From contig JABIVD010000008.1 of NCBI GenBank assembly GCA_018667335.1, positions 1 to 37,285 on the forward strand: a stretch of 37,285 bases of DNA, read 5' to 3'. Within the stretch, counting starts at the first letter, position 1; each line of letters begins with the position of its first letter. Below are positions 6,243 through 27,924 of the stretch, piece after piece. The notes under the pieces are model-generated. The model ran no database searches. It was not told the DNA's origin and saw only the letters and a list, made by a program, of their open reading frames with translations. This DNA is from Rhodospirillaceae bacterium (lineage in GTDB: Bacteria > Pseudomonadota > Alphaproteobacteria > UBA6615). The translations under genes were made by a program, and so were the position numbers.

Positions 6243-7487
6243 ATGGTCGAATTTGCACTGACGAAGCGGCAGTTCGCGCTGCGCGACAAGGCCCGGAAGT
6301 TCGCGATCGAAGAGATGATTCCCGTTGCCGAGGTCGGTGACCGTGAGCCGGACCCGGCCAAATCCTTCAACTGGGATGTCATCCGCAAGGCCGACAAGCT
6401 GGGCCTGCGCACCCTGTCGGTGCCCAAGGAATACGGCGGCGGCGGCGCCGACGTGCTGACGCTGTCCATGGTCGGCGAGAATCTCGCCTATGGCGATCTA
6501 GGGATCGCGGTGGCCTTCGACCAGACCTGGAAGATCATGACCATGATTAGCCATCTGACGACGGCACGGCAGCGCAAGAAATGGCTGCCCCGGGTGATGG
6601 ACGATCCGACCTGCCTGCTGGCCGCGGCGGCAACCGAACCCCTGTCGGGCAGTGATTCCATCCTGCCTTACAACAAGCCCGATGGCGGCGTGCGCATGAC
6701 CGCCAAGAAGCGCGGCGACAAATGGATTCTCAATGGCGAGAAACGCTACATCTCTAATGGCGGGCTGGCGAATGTCATCTATGTCATGGCCCGCACCGAT
6801 ATGCGCAAACCGCCGCTCAAGAGCATGACCGGCTTTCTGCTGACCGCCGACACGCCGGGTTACTCCGTCACCGAAATCTGGGACAAGCTCGGCCAACGCA
6901 ACGTCGCCAACGGCACGATGATTTTCGACAATGTCGAGGTTCCCCAGGCCGATGTGATGGGCACGCCCAATGGTGCACTCGGTGAGTTGGGTGCGCTGTT
7001 GACGCGCTTCGGGTCGAATATTCAGGCGGGCGCGACGGTGCTGGGCGTCGCCCAGCGCGCCTTTGACGTGACCCTGCAATACGCCAAGCAACGCGTGCAG
7101 GGAGGCAAGCCGATCTTCGAGCATCAGATCCAGGCCCAGCGGCTTGCCCGCATGCGCATGCTGATCGAATCTTCGCGCTACTATCTCTGGTATTCAGGCT
7201 GGACGGCCGGACAGGGCGAGCCCGATGCTGTCGCCGCCTCGTTGTGCAAGGTCAACGCGGCAGAGAATTCCGTGAAAGTGCTGATGGAAGCATTCGAGCT
7301 TTGGGCGGCCACCGGCTACATGAAGAAGAACCCGATCGAGAAGCTCCTGCGTGACGGCCTCAGCTTCGTACATTCCGACGGCACCAACGATGTGTTGTTG
7401 CTCAAGGCGTCGCGGCTGCTGGGTGAGATCAGGCGTGGCGACCCGCGCTACAGCCGGCGGGTCGAGCTGGCGGCAAAGGGTCGCTAG
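6243..7487 (+). CDS. Acyl-CoA dehydrogenase family protein
   Basis: A 414-aa FAD enzyme of the acyl-CoA dehydrogenase family, with the N-terminal helical domain, the middle beta domain (AAAATEPLSGSDS, then GEKRYISNGGLANV) and the C-terminal helical domain. In most relatives the catalytic base is the glutamate of a YEGT motif near the C-terminus; here the corresponding segment reads HSDGTND, giving aspartate (D379). That suggests altered substrate preference or chemistry, but alignment is needed. A GGAGAG ribosome site precedes ATG 6243. The gene is probably in an operon with the dehydrogenase upstream. Its TAG stop overlaps that of the convergent hydrolase within the palindrome CTAG at 7484-7487. 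Confidence 0.9.
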   Translation: MVEFALTKRQFALRDKARKFAIEEMIPVAEVGDREPDPAKSFNWDVIRKADKLGLRTLSVPKEYGGGGADVLTLSMVGENLAYGDLGIAVAFDQTWKIMTMISHLTTARQRKKWLPRVMDDPTCLLAAAATEPLSGSDSILPYNKPDGGVRMTAKKRGDKWILNGEKRYISNGGLANVIYVMARTDMRKPPLKSMTGFLLTADTPGYSVTEIWDKLGQRNVANGTMIFDNVEVPQADVMGTPNGALGELGALLTRFGSNIQAGATVLGVAQRAFDVTLQYAKQRVQGGKPIFEHQIQAQRLARMRMLIESSRYYLWYSGWTAGQGEPDAVAASLCKVNAAENSVKVLMEAFELWAATGYMKKNPIEKLLRDGLSFVHSDGTNDVLLLKASRLLGEIRRGDPRYSRRVELAAKGR

Positions 7488-8341
7488 GCCAGCAGTTCAA
7501 CCAGCAACGTGTTGAAGCGGTCCGCCGCTTCATACTGAACCCAGTGTCCGGTGTCTGGGAAGACGTGGAAGGGCACGTCGTGCTGGAGTTCTGTCGCGTG
7601 CGCACGAATACCTGCCAGATCCGGATACAGGGTGGGATCGCCGTCCCCGAACACGAAGTTGAGGCGGCAGGGCAGGCCCGCGAGGCTGTCCGCCGTGATG
7701 AATGTGCGCGCGATCTTGCGCGAACGCAGCCGGGTCTTGCCCATGTTGGCGATATGCAGGTGCATGGCCAAATCGTCCACGGCGGCGGGGTCGTGGACCA
7801 TCAGTTTCTCAAGATTGCTCCGGTATAACGGCGCTGCCTCTGCGGGCGGCATACCCCGTGGCACGGCGACCAGGTCATTGGCCCGGCCCGTGGTGATAAG
7901 GCCCAGGATGGGCGTACCGATGATGGTCAGGCTGCGGATGCGGTCGGCCTGCGCTTGGGCGATGAGACCGGACAGGGTGCCGCCGAAGGAAAACGCCACG
8001 AGGTCGAATGAGGCGCCGTCTTCGGCGAACAGATGATCGAGGCCATCGGACAGGATCGCAGCAAGGCTCGCGGCGTCATAAGGCTCCGGCGGGTCGTCGG
8101 AATCCCCACAGCCCGGCAGGTCGGGCACGAACACCCTGAAATCTGTCTCCAATGCTGAAATGTTGCGCACCCAGTGGTTCCACGCACCGAACCCGCCATG
8201 CAGAAGCACGACCGCGGGCCGCTCGGGCTCGGCTTCCCCCCAGAAGCGCCAGACGAGTTGTCCGTCGCCACAGGGCGTGTGCGCCTCCCGGCAACGGGAG
8301 CGCAGGCTATCGAGTGTGTCTTGCGGTGATGGTTCGGTCAT
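7484..8341 (-). CDS. Alpha/beta hydrolase
   Basis: A 285-aa alpha/beta-hydrolase-fold protein. It shows the oxyanion loop HGGFGAWNHW, a nucleophile elbow AFSFGG (S118; the usual first glycine is alanine), a likely acid in the FGDGDP segment and the catalytic histidine in TGHWVQYEA (H266). These proteins cleave esters, C-C bonds or thioesters; which one cannot be told. It is convergent with the acyl-CoA dehydrogenase gene and shares the CTAG with its stop. No signal peptide is seen, so it is probably cytosolic. The ATG start is clear. It stands alone on its strand, with the tctA fragment 56 bases upstream on the same strand. Confidence 0.88.
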   Translation of the reverse strand: MTEPSPQDTLDSLRSRCREAHTPCGDGQLVWRFWGEAEPERPAVVLLHGGFGAWNHWVRNISALETDFRVFVPDLPGCGDSDDPPEPYDAASLAAILSDGLDHLFAEDGASFDLVAFSFGGTLSGLIAQAQADRIRSLTIIGTPILGLITTGRANDLVAVPRGMPPAEAAPLYRSNLEKLMVHDPAAVDDLAMHLHIANMGKTRLRSRKIARTFITADSLAGLPCRLNFVFGDGDPTLYPDLAGIRAHATELQHDVPFHVFPDTGHWVQYEAADRFNTLLVELLA

Positions 8342-8397: not shown

Positions 8398-8946
8398 TCA
8401 CGATCTCCGTCGGAAGATAGCGTCATAGAAGGTGCAGAGCACGACCATAATCAGGATATTGCCGACCGGACTGGTGAACGGTTCCCACCATGCCTTGTCC
8501 TCGAAGATGACCAGGGCCCCACGCAGGTTTTCATCCGCGAGCGGCCCCAGGAGGACGGCCGGCACCATCGGCGCGACGGGAAATCCGAACCGGCACAACA
8601 CATATCCCGCGATGCCGGCGGACAGCATGATGTAGACGTCCACAAAGTTTAGCCGGACTGCGAACGCACCGATCAGACAGATCGGAATGATCATTGGCAG
8701 GATCATGGTCTGCGGAAGACTGAAGAGTTTTACGCAGGGCTTGATCAGCGCAAACGCCATCATATACATCAGGAAATTGGCGACGATCAGGCCGATATAG
8801 ATGAAGAAGATCAGGACGGGGTTTTCGGTCTGAATGGTGGGCCCGACGACGACGTTTTTGAGCTCTAGCGCTGCGAGGATGGCCGCTGCGGCGGCATTAC
8901 CCGGGATGCCCAGGGTCAGGGTCGGCAGCATGGAGCCGCCGACACC
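8398..8946 (-). pseudogene. tctA: C-terminal fragment of tripartite tricarboxylate transporter permease TctA
   Basis: The last ~182 residues of a TctA-family permease, the large membrane subunit of the TctCBA uptake system for citrate and other carboxylates. The segment GVGGSMLPTLTLGIPGN is the family signature region normally found around residue 320-330 of a ~500-aa protein, and several hydrophobic helices follow (for example IFFIYIGLIVANFLMYMM). The frame stays open further upstream, but the residues beyond the GVGG point do not look like TctA; there the DNA is the plus-strand cckA 3' end. The N-terminal two thirds are therefore missing, and there are no tctB/tctC genes here. It is a truncated remnant created by a rearrangement. 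Confidence 0.85.
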
Positions 8947-9327
8947 ACGGGCGCGGGCACTGTTTTGGTGGTCGAAGAAGAGGATGCGGTGCGCCTGTTC
9001 TCGGCGCGTGCCCTGCGCGCCAAAGGCTGCAAGGTCCTGGAGGCGCGAACCGGTGAGGCGGCCATGGAGCTGATGGATGTTGTCGAGGAGCCGATCGACC
9101 TGCTTATCACCGACGCGGTGATGCCCGAGATGGGTGGCCCGACCCTGATCAAGAATGTGCGGGACGAGAAATCCGATATGCCGGTCATCTGTATCTCGGG
9201 GTATGCTCAGGAAATCTTCCGGAACCGGCTCGGCGAGGACCAGGATATCCATTTCCTGCCCAAGCCGTTCTCCCTGGCCCAGCTTGCCTGCAAGGTGAAA
9301 GAGGTACTGGACCGGGTGCCGCAATAG
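8941..9327 (+). pseudogene. cckA: Receiver-domain remnant of cell-cycle hybrid kinase CckA
   Basis: The plus strand encodes the linker and full C-terminal receiver domain of CckA, the hybrid kinase that feeds phosphate to ChpT and CtrA in alphaproteobacteria. Recognisable are GAGTVLVVEEEDAVRLFSARAL, the phospho-acceptor region LLITDAVMPEMGGPT, the switch region ICISGYAQ and the lysine motif HFLPKPFSL. The PAS and kinase domains are absent: immediately upstream the DNA becomes the minus-strand tctA fragment. A TTG at 8965 could start translation, but there is no ribosome site and it would fall inside the domain. In relatives cckA often lies just before recA, so this 3' end is at its expected place and the rest has been lost or moved. 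It is called a remnant, not a free-standing response regulator. Confidence 0.8.
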
Positions 9328-9428
9328 GCGTCCGCTCCCGCGCGTGCCGACTCCGGCGCGTCCGCTATAGTTCAGATGCTCATTCAGACAGCTCAATATC
9401 GTGCAAACTGCACGGTAGAATAGGGCTT

Positions 9429-9459
9429 TTGAATGAGAACAAAAAAAGAACTTTACAAT
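9429..9459 (+). promoter_or_regulatory. recA promoter with LexA (SOS) box between -35 and -10
   Basis: The element GAACAAAAAAAGAAC at 9437-9451 fits the alphaproteobacterial LexA site GAAC-N7-GAAC exactly. It lies between a possible -35 (TTGAAT, 9429-9434) and -10 (TACAAT, 9454-9459; spacing 19). LexA bound there would block RNA polymerase, so recA should be induced by DNA damage. The -35/-10 assignment is by eye; the box itself is unambiguous. Confidence 0.85.
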
Positions 9460-9581
9460 TAGAACAAAGCAAGTACGTTAACGCTCTGAACCGCGGTGGT
9501 GGGGGATTTCACCAACGTGGGACTGCAGAAACCTAGAGGGATCCCAAGGCGGGGTCTCCAGAAGGAACGGAGGAGCGATCC

Positions 9582-10754
<1,173 letters not shown>

Positions 10755-10828: not shown

Positions 10829-10922
10829 GCATTGGGGGACGCACATTGGTCGGTAGCCTCGACAGGCATCCGGGCGCACGGTAAAACCGCCCCCGCACCT
10901 TGTTTTGACCGGCCCGGCAGAT

Positions 10923-13604
10923 ATGGCGACCACCAGCGAAATCCGTTCAGCGTTTCTCGACTATTTTGCCCAGGATGGGCATGAGATCGTCGATTCATCG
11001 CCGCTCGTACCCCACAATGATCCGACTCTGCTGTTTACCAACGCGGGCATGGTGCAGTTCAAGAATGTGTTTACCGGCGCCGAGAACCGGCTCTACAGCC
11101 GCGCCACCACATCGCAGAAATGCGTGCGCGCCGGTGGCAAGCACAATGATCTGGAGAATGTTGGTTACACCGCGCGCCATCACACCTTTTTCGAGATGCT
11201 CGGAAATTTTTCCTTTGGGGATTATTTCAAGGGACATGCGATCGAGCTCGCCTGGAACCTGATCACCAAGGAATACGGCCTGCCTGCGGACCGTCTGATT
11301 GCGACCGTGTATGCCGAGGATGACGAGGCTTATGATCTCTGGAAGAAGATCGGGGGCTTGTCGGACGACAAGATCATCCGCATCGCCACCCACGACAATT
11401 TCTGGGCGATGGGCGACACCGGCCCGTGCGGGCCCTGCTCTGAAATCTTCTTCGACCATGGCGACAAGATCCCCGGAGGCCCGCCGGGCAGTCCGAACGA
11501 GGATGGTGACCGCTTCATCGAGGTCTGGAACCTGGTGTTCATGCAGTATGAGCAACGCAACGCAGACCTGCGCGAAGACCTGCCGAAACCCTCAATCGAC
11601 ACGGGCATGGGCCTGGAACGTATTGCCGCCGTCCTCCAGGGCAAGCACGACAATTACGATATCGATCTGATGCGTGGCCTGATCGAGGCCTCAGCGCACG
11701 TGGCCAACGTGGATCCGGACGGCGCGGGTGCGGTCAGCCATAGGGTAATCGCAGACCATCTGCGGGCCTGCTCGTTTCTCATGGCTGATGGCGTGCTGCC
11801 GTCGAATGAAGGGCGCGGCTATGTACTCCGGCGGATCATGCGCCGCGGTATGCGCCACGCCCATCTGTTGGGCTGCCGCGATCCACTGATGCATCGCCTG
11901 GTGCCGTCCCTGGTGTCGGCGATGGGGGATGCGTTCCCTGAACTGCGTCGCGCCCAGCCGCTGATTACCGAGACCTTCCGGTTGGAAGAGGAGCGCTTCA
12001 AGCAGACCCTCGATCGTGGCCTGAAATTGCTGGAAGAAGAAACGGACAAGTTGGGGGACGGGGCGGACCTGTCCGGTGATGTCGCGTTCCGCCTGTATGA
12101 CACGTTCGGCTTCCCGCTCGACCTGACCGAAGATATTTTGCGCGGGCAGGGGCGTTCGGTCAACAATGCCGCATTCGACGCGGCGATGGACGCCCAACGG
12201 GCTGCCGCACGCCGCGCCTGGTCAGGATCGGGCGACGCGGCGACCGAGGAAGTCTGGTTCGATATCCGCGAGGAAACCGGTGCTACCGAGTTTCTGGGCT
12301 ACGACACTGATACGGCCGAGGGAAAAGTTACAGCGATCGTGGTTGACGGTCAGCGGGTCGACAACGCCACACATGGCCAGGATGTGGCGGTCATTGTCAA
12401 TCAGACGCCGTTCTATGGTGAATCCGGCGGCCAGATGGGCGATGCCGGCGTGATGTTCAGCTCGAATGGCGCAGAGATCACCGTCCGGGATACCCAAAAG
12501 AAGCTCGGGGTTATGCATGTCCATCTAGGGACTGTCGACGGCAAGGCGCTGTCGGTCGGTGATGTGGTCGAACTGCGTATCGACGTCATGCGCCGCGACC
12601 GGTTGCGGGCCAATCATTCAGCCACCCATCTGTTGCACGAGGCGTTGCGCAGCGAGTTGGGTGCGCATGTCGCCCAGAAGGGCTCGCTGGTGGCGCCGGA
12701 CCGTCTACGGTTCGATATCTTCCATACCAAAACAATGGACGCCGCGGAGATTTCCGCCGTTGAAGCAGCGGCCAATGCGCGGGTTGCAGTTAACGCGCCG
12801 GTCAATACGACCCTGATGTCCCCTGATGAGGCGATCGATGCCGGTGCGCTCGCGCTGTTCGGCGAAAAGTATGGCGACGAAGTCCGGGTTGTCGCGATGG
12901 GCGGTACCGCGAATGATGACGGTGACGAGAACCGTGTCGCCTATTCGGTGGAGCTGTGCGGCGGCACCCATGTGCGCCGAACCGGCGATATCGGACTGAT
13001 CAAGATTATCTCGGAGAGCGCAGTCTCGGCCGGTGTGCGCCGGATCGAGGCGCTGACGGGCCCCGATGCGCGCGCCTATCTGGAGAATCAGGATCGGCTC
13101 CTGCGCGAGACGGCAGATGTCCTGCGGACGACGCCCGATGCGGTTCCCGAACGCGTTACGCAATTGCTCGACGAGCGTAAAAAACTCGAACGCGAACTGA
13201 CCGACACGCGCCGCAAGCTTGCGGCGGGCGGCGGTGGCGCGTCTGGTGCCGATAACGAATCCAAGGATATTGGCGGTGTCACTTACGCCGCCAGGGCGTT
13301 AACGGATGTGCCGCCGCGCGAGCTCAAGAGCCTCGTCGACGACATGAAAGACAGCATCGGATCCGGCGTGATTGCGGTGGCCGGTGCGTATGACGGCAAG
13401 AGCTCCATCGTGATCGGGGTCACCTCCGATTTGATTAAGCGATTCAGCGCGGTTGATCTCGTCCGTATCGGCGTGGCCGAGCTGGGCGGTAAGGGCGGTG
13501 GCGGGCGCCCGGACATGGCCCAGGGCGGCGGCCCCGATCCCTCGAAGACCGAGGCCGCTCTGGCCGCGATTGAGGCGGCCCTGAAGAACGAGCTGGCCGT
13601 CTGA
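10923..13604 (+). CDS. alaS: Alanine--tRNA ligase
   Basis: Alanyl-tRNA synthetase charges tRNA-Ala with alanine and hydrolyses mischarged Ser/Gly-tRNA. The 893-aa protein is full length. The N-terminal class II catalytic core shows [15 protein letters not shown] and [18 protein letters not shown]. The editing domain has its zinc-site motifs HSATH (H565 onward) and CGGTH (C679-H683). The C-Ala/DHHA1 domain ends with [12 protein letters not shown]. Start 10923 ([15 protein letters not shown]) is preferred to the TTG at 10905 because it matches the usual N-terminus. recA-alaS adjacency is common in alphaproteobacteria. The MoxR gene follows after 23 bases and could be read through from alaS, as no terminator is seen. 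Confidence 0.97.
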
Positions 13605-25605: not shown

Positions 25606-27924
25606 TCAGGGCGTGGAGCGTGACAGGAGGCTATCTACCTCTGCAAGCAGGTCTTTCCTGGCATAGGGCTTGGTGAGTACATGCACCTCATCACCGCTCA
25701 TCCCATGATCCTCGATCGCGTTTTGGGAATAGCCGGTGGCAAACAGGACCTGTATTTCCGGTTGCAGGCGCAATGCTTCCTGCGCCACGTCCACACCGTT
25801 TATGCTGCCCGGTAACATTACGTCGCTGAACAGTAGATCAAATGCTTCTTCGGTCCGCAGGCATTCCAGCGCCTCGGCGCCGTTTCTCGCCTCGATCACC
25901 TCGAAACCATGCGTTCGCAGAATGTGCACGGGTATTGCCCGTAAATCCTCATCATCCTCAAGCACCAGAATACGCCCCGCACGCGATCGCGGCTCGGGCG
26001 CTTCTTCTTCCTTGGTGTCCGGCTTCAATGCCTGGAGCCCACGCGGCAAATAGAGCGCCACAGTGGTGCCATGACCGATCTCACTGGAGATCGTCATATG
26101 TCCCTCCGACTGCTTGGCAAATCCAAACACCATGCTGAGCCCAAGTCCGCTGCCTTCGCCCACGCCTTTCGTGGTGAAGAATGGCTCGATCACACTGTCC
26201 AGAATCTTCGGTTCGATACCCAAACCGGTATCGCGCACCGTGACTCTCAAATAATCGCCCGGTGACAGTTCCTCGTATTTTCCTGCCTCGACGTCGTCCA
26301 GAACTATATTTTCTGTTGCGATCGTCAGCCTTCCACTTTTGGGCATGGCATCGCGGGCATTGAGCGTCAGGTTGAGCAGCGCGTTCTCGAACTGATGGGC
26401 ATCGATCGTCGCCGTCCAGGCGTTCTCACCAAATTCGATCGCCAGGTCGATGTTCTCGCCAAGCGCGCGCTTCAGCATGTACTCGAAGCCCTCGATCAGT
26501 TCGACGACGTCCGTTGTCGTCGGTATCAGAACTTGCTGACGCGAGAATGACAGCAGGTGCTGGGTCAGCGATCCAGCGCGGTTGATTGCTTCGATCGCGG
26601 CGTGGATGTGGCGACGCGCCGGGTTGTTGGCGTCGAGTTCCAGTTGGGCATTTTCTGCATTGCCCAGCATGACGCCCAGAAGATTGTTGAAATCGTGCGC
26701 CACGCCGCCCGTCAACTGACCCACGGCTTCCATTTTCTGGGCCTGGTGGAGTTGCTGGAGGTTTTGGTTGAGTGCCTCCTCGCGCGCTTTCAGCTTTTGC
26801 GCCATGGCGTTGAACTCGTCGGTGAACGCGCCGAGACCATCCGACCCCTGCGTTTCGAGCATGAGGTCGAGGTCACCTTCGCTGACGCGTTTTGCAGCTT
26901 CGGCGAGAACGGAGAAGCGGCGCGACATTGTGTACTGCATGGCGATGGCAACGAATATTGCCGCCAGAACTCCTGTCGTTGCGACAACAATGAATATCTG
27001 CTGATTTCGATGACCTTCAGCGATTGTACGCTGTTCAATCACGGCGAAAATCTCGTTGATTTCTTCGTTGAGCAAGCCGATCTGGTTTTGCGCGACCAGA
27101 AACGCATCGGTTGCGATCTTGGTGACTTCCCTTTGGGACGTCCCCGTCAACTCCGCTTCCTCGGCATCGCGGTAGATGAACAGGGCCGCACGAATACTTC
27201 GTACGGAATTTTGAACCTCGTCGATGTCTTTGGCTGCTTGGGACAGATCTTCGCCGGCAAACAACGAATGAACCGGTGGCGCGGTCACCAACGGCAAATC
27301 GTCCAGAACCTTCCGCGCTTGCTGAATTGGTGATGTGACGCTTGAGAATTCGAACCCGGGTTGATCGAAAAAGCGCTGCAGTACGGATTCGGTGGCATTC
27401 AGCAGGTTGCTGATTTTCTGCAGACCCTCGGGAGAAAGGCCAATTCGCGAACCGGACGTGTAGAGGTAGATGAGCGCTTTCCGCAATTCCGCCAACTCTC
27501 GTTCGACGGCGTGCCTCAGTTCAATCGCTGTATCGGTCGGGCCATATTCAGCGATTTCGTCGAGATGAAGATTGAACGCGAGGCGTGCGCGATTTCCCGG
27601 GCGACGTCGTAAATCCGGGGACGGAAAATCATCGGACAAACTGGCGATCAGGTCGGTTTCGGCTTTCGTCAATCGGCTCAGGTTCTCGAGACCACTCGCG
27701 GCCGTGACGCGATCCTGGCTGTTGTATACGGCGAAAGCGAGTTCGGCCTCTGCGAGCAATGAGCCGAACTGTTCCAGGCCAACCTGCGTCGGCACCGTGA
27801 TGGACGAGCGGATCTCGATTGAGGTGGCCGTGCGGCTATCGTGTTGAATGGCCAGCGTGGCGACGATTGTTACCAATGCTGCGAGGACAAAAAACCCGGC
27901 ACGTATCTGATTGGTCAGGGACAT
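25606..27924 (-). CDS. Hybrid sensor histidine kinase with C-terminal receiver
   Basis: A 772-aa membrane-bound hybrid kinase. Order: membrane helix 1 (residues ~9-26), a large periplasmic, mainly helical sensor (~27-305), membrane helix 2 (~306-330), HAMP (~330-385), HisKA with the phospho-histidine in GGVAHDFNN (H410), HATPase (GLGLSMVFGFAKQSEG and preceding DTGLGIEP), and a receiver domain (~655-770) with LLFSDVMLPG (D701) and a conserved lysine in LTKPYARKD. This layout is typical of alphaproteobacterial hybrid kinases that hand phosphate to an external Hpt protein or regulator; none is encoded here. It lies 51 bases after the ethylbenzene-dehydrogenase-like gene on the same strand, suggesting that the secreted protein is linked with its signal. 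Confidence 0.93.
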   Translation of the reverse strand: MSLTNQIRAGFFVLAALVTIVATLAIQHDSRTATSIEIRSSITVPTQVGLEQFGSLLAEAELAFAVYNSQDRVTAASGLENLSRLTKAETDLIASLSDDFPSPDLRRRPGNRARLAFNLHLDEIAEYGPTDTAIELRHAVERELAELRKALIYLYTSGSRIGLSPEGLQKISNLLNATESVLQRFFDQPGFEFSSVTSPIQQARKVLDDLPLVTAPPVHSLFAGEDLSQAAKDIDEVQNSVRSIRAALFIYRDAEEAELTGTSQREVTKIATDAFLVAQNQIGLLNEEINEIFAVIEQRTIAEGHRNQQIFIVVATTGVLAAIFVAIAMQYTMSRRFSVLAEAAKRVSEGDLDLMLETQGSDGLGAFTDEFNAMAQKLKAREEALNQNLQQLHQAQKMEAVGQLTGGVAHDFNNLLGVMLGNAENAQLELDANNPARRHIHAAIEAINRAGSLTQHLLSFSRQQVLIPTTTDVVELIEGFEYMLKRALGENIDLAIEFGENAWTATIDAHQFENALLNLTLNARDAMPKSGRLTIATENIVLDDVEAGKYEELSPGDYLRVTVRDTGLGIEPKILDSVIEPFFTTKGVGEGSGLGLSMVFGFAKQSEGHMTISSEIGHGTTVALYLPRGLQALKPDTKEEEAPEPRSRAGRILVLEDDEDLRAIPVHILRTHGFEVIEARNGAEALECLRTEEAFDLLFSDVMLPGSINGVDVAQEALRLQPEIQVLFATGYSQNAIEDHGMSGDEVHVLTKPYARKDLLAEVDSLLSRSTP

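Follow-up and report, generated by a model that had tools for sequence, protein, structure and literature searches.

In the draft genome G000 of a Rhodospirillaceae bacterium, the 3' ends of tctA and cckA lie back to back beside recA, each without its 5' part. The joint between the two remnants is real as an observation, and it is very likely the scar of a deletion that began inside tctA and reached into the receiver-coding part of cckA. Furthermore, we lean towards the view that in this family the whole CckA-ChpT-CtrA relay disappeared along with the flagellum on six or more occasions, each time through a deletion of its own at a single conserved locus, and that several lineages cycle without CtrA. 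Taken singly, a deletion of this kind is an ordinary event; that it recurs across the family is of mild interest.

The two remnants and their joint

The window, that is, the whole 37,285-nucleotide stretch of DNA analysed, is contig 39 of the 62-contig draft genome (3.55 Mb, 96% complete). Its left flank at the locus is an intact abh gene encoding an alpha/beta hydrolase (7484-8341, minus strand; Pfam Abhydrolase_6), with an ortholog on the same flank in G006 (77% identity), G001, G002, G003 and G004. The right flank is an intact recA (9582-10754, plus strand; 92% identity to G006), followed by alaS (10905-13604, plus strand), which was identified from its open reading frame and the gene order in relatives and is next in the conserved cckA-recA-alaS order. 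Going from abh to recA, the interval holds only 56 bp of spacer, the two remnants (tctA, then cckA) and 254 bp of spacer. This leaves no room for a mobile element, and an insertion of that kind was rejected as the cause in the window. Upstream of recA, at 9437-9451, is the sole match in the window to the pattern GAAC-N7-GAAC, which we take to be a form of the alphaproteobacterial LexA box; this putative site was kept despite the loss of cckA.

The tctA remnant (8398-8942, minus strand) retains approximately the last 185 codons of the gene for this subunit of the tripartite tricarboxylate transporter, and its 5' part is missing. Pfam TctA matched the minus strand at 8401-8958 (E = 1.6e-31) over model positions 296-422 of 423, and the surviving part corresponds to residues 303-487 of the 488-residue protein of G018. 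No match to tctB or tctC was found within the window with the G018 proteins as queries, and a working TctABC transporter, comprising full-length TctA, TctB and TctC, is not encoded there. The G000 genome has five TctA matches, the other four being full-length paralogs that are 29-34% identical, and the missing 5' part of the window gene was not found elsewhere in this draft assembly.

The cckA remnant (8935-9327, plus strand) encodes the receiver-domain end only. Pfam Response_reg matched the plus strand at 8941-9324 (E = 3.1e-19). The best two NCBIfam models of the piece were both CckA models, matched over their last 124 or so positions with scores of 154 and 128 bits, far below the cut-off of 1000, and the remnant has the C-terminal receiver domain of the CckA type. 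What remains is about the last 15% of the gene, residues 722-852 of 853 in the numbering of G006 CckA, with 89% identity. The G006 protein contains PAS, HisKA and HATPase_c domains, and the homology in the window begins at about residue 722, past HATPase_c. The initial annotation had described the 3' half of each gene as preserved; the 3' ends are indeed there, but for cckA the surviving portion is much less than half. Its statement that cckA is lost as a kinase holds, since the kinase domains are missing. No 5' cckA was detected elsewhere in G000, where 40 of the 83 candidates were scored and none but the remnant itself had more than 38% identity to G006 CckA. A 772-residue hybrid histidine kinase is encoded on the minus strand of the window at 25606-27924; it is 38% identical to CckA over the kinase and receiver parts and is a paralog.

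In DNA alignments, the tctA homology spans 8408-8942 against G018 (81% identity) and 8398-8940 against G014 (78%), while the cckA homology sets in at 8935 (82% to G006). Because the two homologies end and begin there, the joint was placed at 8935-8942, GCCGCCGA, where they overlap. This lies inside the range of 8930-8960 originally proposed, and the Pfam matches together with the DNA homology limits confirm that both genes are truncated at a single point, just as the gene order confirms that the truncated pair adjoins recA. The joint was seen in one assembly, G000. Of its bases, 8/8 match G018 tctA, 6/8 match G006 cckA and 7/8 match G005 cckA; the shared word is short and G+C-rich, and the ancestral bases may differ from those of the living genes. 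A 332-residue open reading frame on the minus strand (8398-9396) passes through tctA and then the antisense of cckA and is not a gene of that length.

We considered whether the cckA remnant might persist as a functional receiver protein on its own, 120 residues long and starting from TTG at 8965. The frame is open to its natural stop, the product is 91% identical to the G006 receiver with a dN/dS of 0.10, and the LLITDAVMP stretch including its aspartate is retained. However, VEDED and EMDG, motifs that matter in the receiver, are altered to VEEED and EMGG. By subtraction, the window branch has accumulated 13 non-synonymous and 22.5 synonymous changes against 2 and 13.5 on the G006 branch, an excess of non-synonymous change that is suggestive only (Fisher p = 0.10, rounded counts). 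Moreover, neither ChpT nor CtrA was found in G000 as a partner, the G005 copy has an in-frame stop and the copies in G001, G009 and G017 are broken, so that a functional receiver protein is quite improbable. Neither cckA nor tctA in the window should be annotated as a working gene.

Ancestral gene order and origin of the joint

In G006, abh (C2:12547-13392) is followed by a flagellar block and then by cckA, in the order abh, flgH-flgA-flgG-flgF, fliP, flgB-flgC-fliE-fliR-flhB, intact cckA, recA and alaS, with further genes on either side of fliP. Pfam supports FlgH, FlgA, two rod proteins of the FlgE/F/G type, FliP, a FlgC-type rod protein, FliE, FliR, FlhB and one MotB-like protein within this block; a second MotB-like match was below the cut-off, and the protein called FlgB had no Pfam match and is named by its position. 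The distance from abh to the cckA point that matches the joint is 20.4 kb in G006 versus 594 bp in the window, where the tctA remnant lies between.

The right side of this arrangement is widely conserved. A cckA receiver match was present in 16 of 17 stretches from relatives; one of the 16 (L069) is a 35% identical paralog, the other 15 also have recA within about 2.4 kb, and the seventeenth stretch (L068 of G003) ends inside cckA. The flhB gene is directly upstream of intact cckA in G006, G022, G018, G014 and G008. Among the 80 named loci listed from AlaS matches, 16 carry the genes in the order flhB, cckA, recA, alaS, including those of Azospirillum brasilense, Ferruginivarius, Ferrovibrio and Pelagibius; the remaining loci in many cases end early or are otherwise arranged. 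The order cckA-recA-alaS is thus common in the family of the window and in named Rhodospirillales and Hyphomicrobiales records, and the suggestion that cckA had been relocated beside recA can be set aside.

On the left side, a short tctA tail is present between abh and flgH in two relatives that retain the flagellar block, 31 bp in G006 and approximately 50 alignment columns in G003, in the orientation seen in the window. Compared with the window tctA, the tails scored 52 (G006) and 54 (G003), the best of 1000 shuffles reaching 29 and 33; compared with G018 tctA, they scored 45 and 44 and the shuffles 34 and 32. From these tails, tctA very probably once lay between abh and flgH, pointing away from cckA, before the flagellar block was lost. 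In G022, a tctC-tctB-tctA operon adjoins flgH in the orientation opposite to that of the window (L185, G022:C128), which indicates that the tct genes moved or turned in one lineage. The tctA of this operon is split by a frame change.

In the window, then, abh and recA flank the locus in ancestral order and orientation, the tctA and cckA fragments occupy their ancestral place and orientation by comparison with G006 and G003, and the interval between is missing. One deletion, or the last of several overlapping ones, would have run from tctA into the receiver end of cckA and removed about 20 kb, comprising flgH-flgA-flgG-flgF, a MotB-like gene, fliP and flgB-flgC-fliE-fliR-flhB. With tctA and cckA transcribed in divergent directions, their 3' ends would come to lie back to back after a simple deletion. 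Recombination between short homologies would fit the short sequence shared at the joint, and yet this microhomology (6 or 7 of 8 bases with living cckA genes) may be due to chance.

The initial annotation had explained the back-to-back ends by an inversion, whose breakpoints would lie within tctA and cckA. The topology suits that explanation, and in G022 the tct operon next to flgH has the reverse orientation, but a deletion reaching from one divergent gene into the other yields this topology too. The missing 5' parts of cckA and tctA, expected to be joined head to head, were not found in the G000 draft assembly (40 of 83 CckA candidates scored), and the tctA tails of G006 and G003 share the orientation of the window although the flagellar block is retained there. 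With neither 5' part recovered from the draft assembly in these searches, and with both fragments still at their ancestral position, the inversion was rejected as extremely improbable.

Misassembly, the alternative named in the initial annotation, was considered as well, in which two contigs were wrongly joined at the short shared word and more sequence truly lies between tctA and cckA. A draft of 62 contigs and a short, G+C-rich word would allow this. It is nevertheless unlikely, given the ancestral place and orientation of both fragments, the collapse of the same interval in G001, G002 and G004, and the absence of FlhA, ChpT, CtrA and 5' CckA matches from an assembly that is 96% complete.

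Relay and flagellar genes across the family

For the structural flagellar genes, the genome-wide search used FlhA only. In G000 there was no match to FlhA (2 of 2 candidates scored) or ChpT (11 of 11), and the best matches to the CtrA query were 32-34% identical, none being of its own kind (52 of 52). Full-length cckA, chpT and ctrA, for which a search elsewhere had been advised, were thus not found in the G000 assembly (for cckA, among the 40 of 83 candidates scored). Because this lineage has no FlhA, ChpT or CtrA matches, the deletion scar would be part of a wider loss of motility in which recA stayed intact; once the flagellum was gone, the relay was probably dispensable and then decayed.

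Twenty-four family genomes were searched, and the counts in many of them are among the matches listed. FlhA matches were found in 7 of the 24 (G006, G008, G012, G014, G016, G018 and G022) and ChpT matches also in seven (G003, G006, G012, G013, G014, G022 and, as a piece only, G005). Full CtrA was present in G003, G006, G008, G012, G013, G014 and G022 (7/24); partial CtrA sequences were found in G005 and in G016, the latter at a contig end. In G006, CtrA (NF045991, 423 bits, cut-off 350) neighbours ChpT (NF046018, 132.7 bits, under the cut-off of 240), with flhA in one 19-kb stretch at a locus separate from that of cckA. In G008, CheR and CheB adjoin CtrA, and no ChpT was found. CckA is intact in six genomes (G006, G008, G013, G014, G018 and G022), broken in eight (G000, G001, G002, G005, G009, G017, G020 and G021, with contig ends also involved in G005 and G020) and without a close match among those listed in six (G004, G007, G011, G015, G019 and G023). 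In the other four genomes, cckA runs into the end of its contig (G003), is spread over two frames (G012), is partial and contains a stop (G010) or is a contig-end fragment (G016).

FlhA and full CtrA were associated across the family (Fisher p = 0.009, with genomes treated as independent of kinship). G018 lacks CtrA and ChpT, but only 480 bp separate its flhA from a contig end, on the flank where the G006 order would place these two genes. G003 and G010, which are both 79% complete, have other flagellar genes without an FlhA match. In G013 (L073), CckA, ChpT and CtrA are kept, with no FlhA match and no flagellar gene recognised beside cckA, and therefore relay and flagellum were not always lost together. 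A second relay locus appears half lost in G005:C9 (L206:3490-4441), where partial ctrA and chpT sequences are flanked by F10-adh-acaDH on one side and a NuoF-like gene on the other; the chpT piece, a 133-residue open reading frame, had no Pfam match alone, scored 33.5 bits in the genome search and is 86% identical to the G006 protein.

The scars at the cckA locus have different endpoints. In G005, the minus strand encodes flgH residues 41-160, and this piece abuts cckA (residue 637 onward) at approximately 306-362 of L058, with the topology of the window. In G002, a 320-residue open reading frame (L063:6580-7542) fuses residues 5-78 of a FlgB-like protein in frame to the CckA receiver (776-878) and adjoins a flgH relic. 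G021 retains cckA residues 547-687 and an flgH tail, and G011 has a flgB-like piece, an integrase-core frame and then recA, with no cckA. The abh gene adjoins the cckA remnant in G001 and G002 and is 270 bp from recA in G004.

Several neighbouring arrangements were also observed. Integrase-core frames resembling insertion sequences are present in G011 (L200:1249-2400 and 9553-10530), beside acaDH and between the flgB-like piece and recA. In G019 (L202), G007 (L203) and G015 (L204), acaDH is directly before recA; in L202 and L203, F10 and the NuoF-like gene follow beyond acaDH, as if both flagellar loci had closed up. In G021 (L201), recA, alaS and the AAA gene are each broken up over several frames and recA is 62% identical with six TGA codons, reflecting poor assembly or real decay.

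A tree of recA-alaS-AAA-VWA was built for 22 of the 24 family genomes (G003 and G023 had no recA match) and four outgroups. In several of these genomes one or more of the four proteins are missing, the branch leading to G021 is very long, and completeness is only 61% for G009. The tree pairs G006 with G005 (support 76), with G000 next to them. Counted by hand on this tree without regain, the losses would number seven, namely G000; G005; G001 with G004; G002; G011 with G017, G020 and G021; G007 with G015 and G019; and G009. The count would be six if G000 and G005 were sisters.

Relation to known losses of the relay

Loss of the relay is already known in kind, because a passage of PMC2877005 reports relay members missing to varying degrees in a Rhodospirillales cluster and no ctrA in Granulibacter and Pelagibacter. 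According to the survey in PMC8116508, chpT, cckA and divL were identified in only 27-36% of Rhodospirillales genomes, and the low counts might mean weaker selection or divergent genes that went unrecognised. The present family resembles these early-branching alphaproteobacteria in missing relay genes to differing degrees. Whereas those passages deal with presence and absence only, the present genomes still show the remnants and where they end, as well as the loss of relay genes jointly with a flagellar block. According to PMC3692519, CckA-ChpT-CtrA controls flagellar motility in Ruegeria sp. KLH11; the relay is likewise tied to flagellar genes here, but both are gone.

Deletion scars with truncated gene ends occur in lineages that lose motility. 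The joint resembles them in its flanks in ancestral order, missing interval and truncated genes, and perhaps in the short shared sequence, and nothing categorical differs; here the kinase gene that ends the flagellar block was also taken. No description of this scar was found in literature searches on the relay with motility, gene loss, pseudogenes or the cckA-flhB-recA cluster.

The remnants with visible endpoints indicate true loss in several lineages rather than failed recognition. An ancestral role in motility and recombination is mentioned in PMC9756655, and the disappearance of relay genes together with flagellar ones agrees with the proposal that CtrA first served motility. G013, which kept the relay without an FlhA match, marks where another CtrA role may hold. 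Should six or more such losses of the relay indeed have occurred, the family would offer a natural experiment on the ancestral tie of CtrA to motility.
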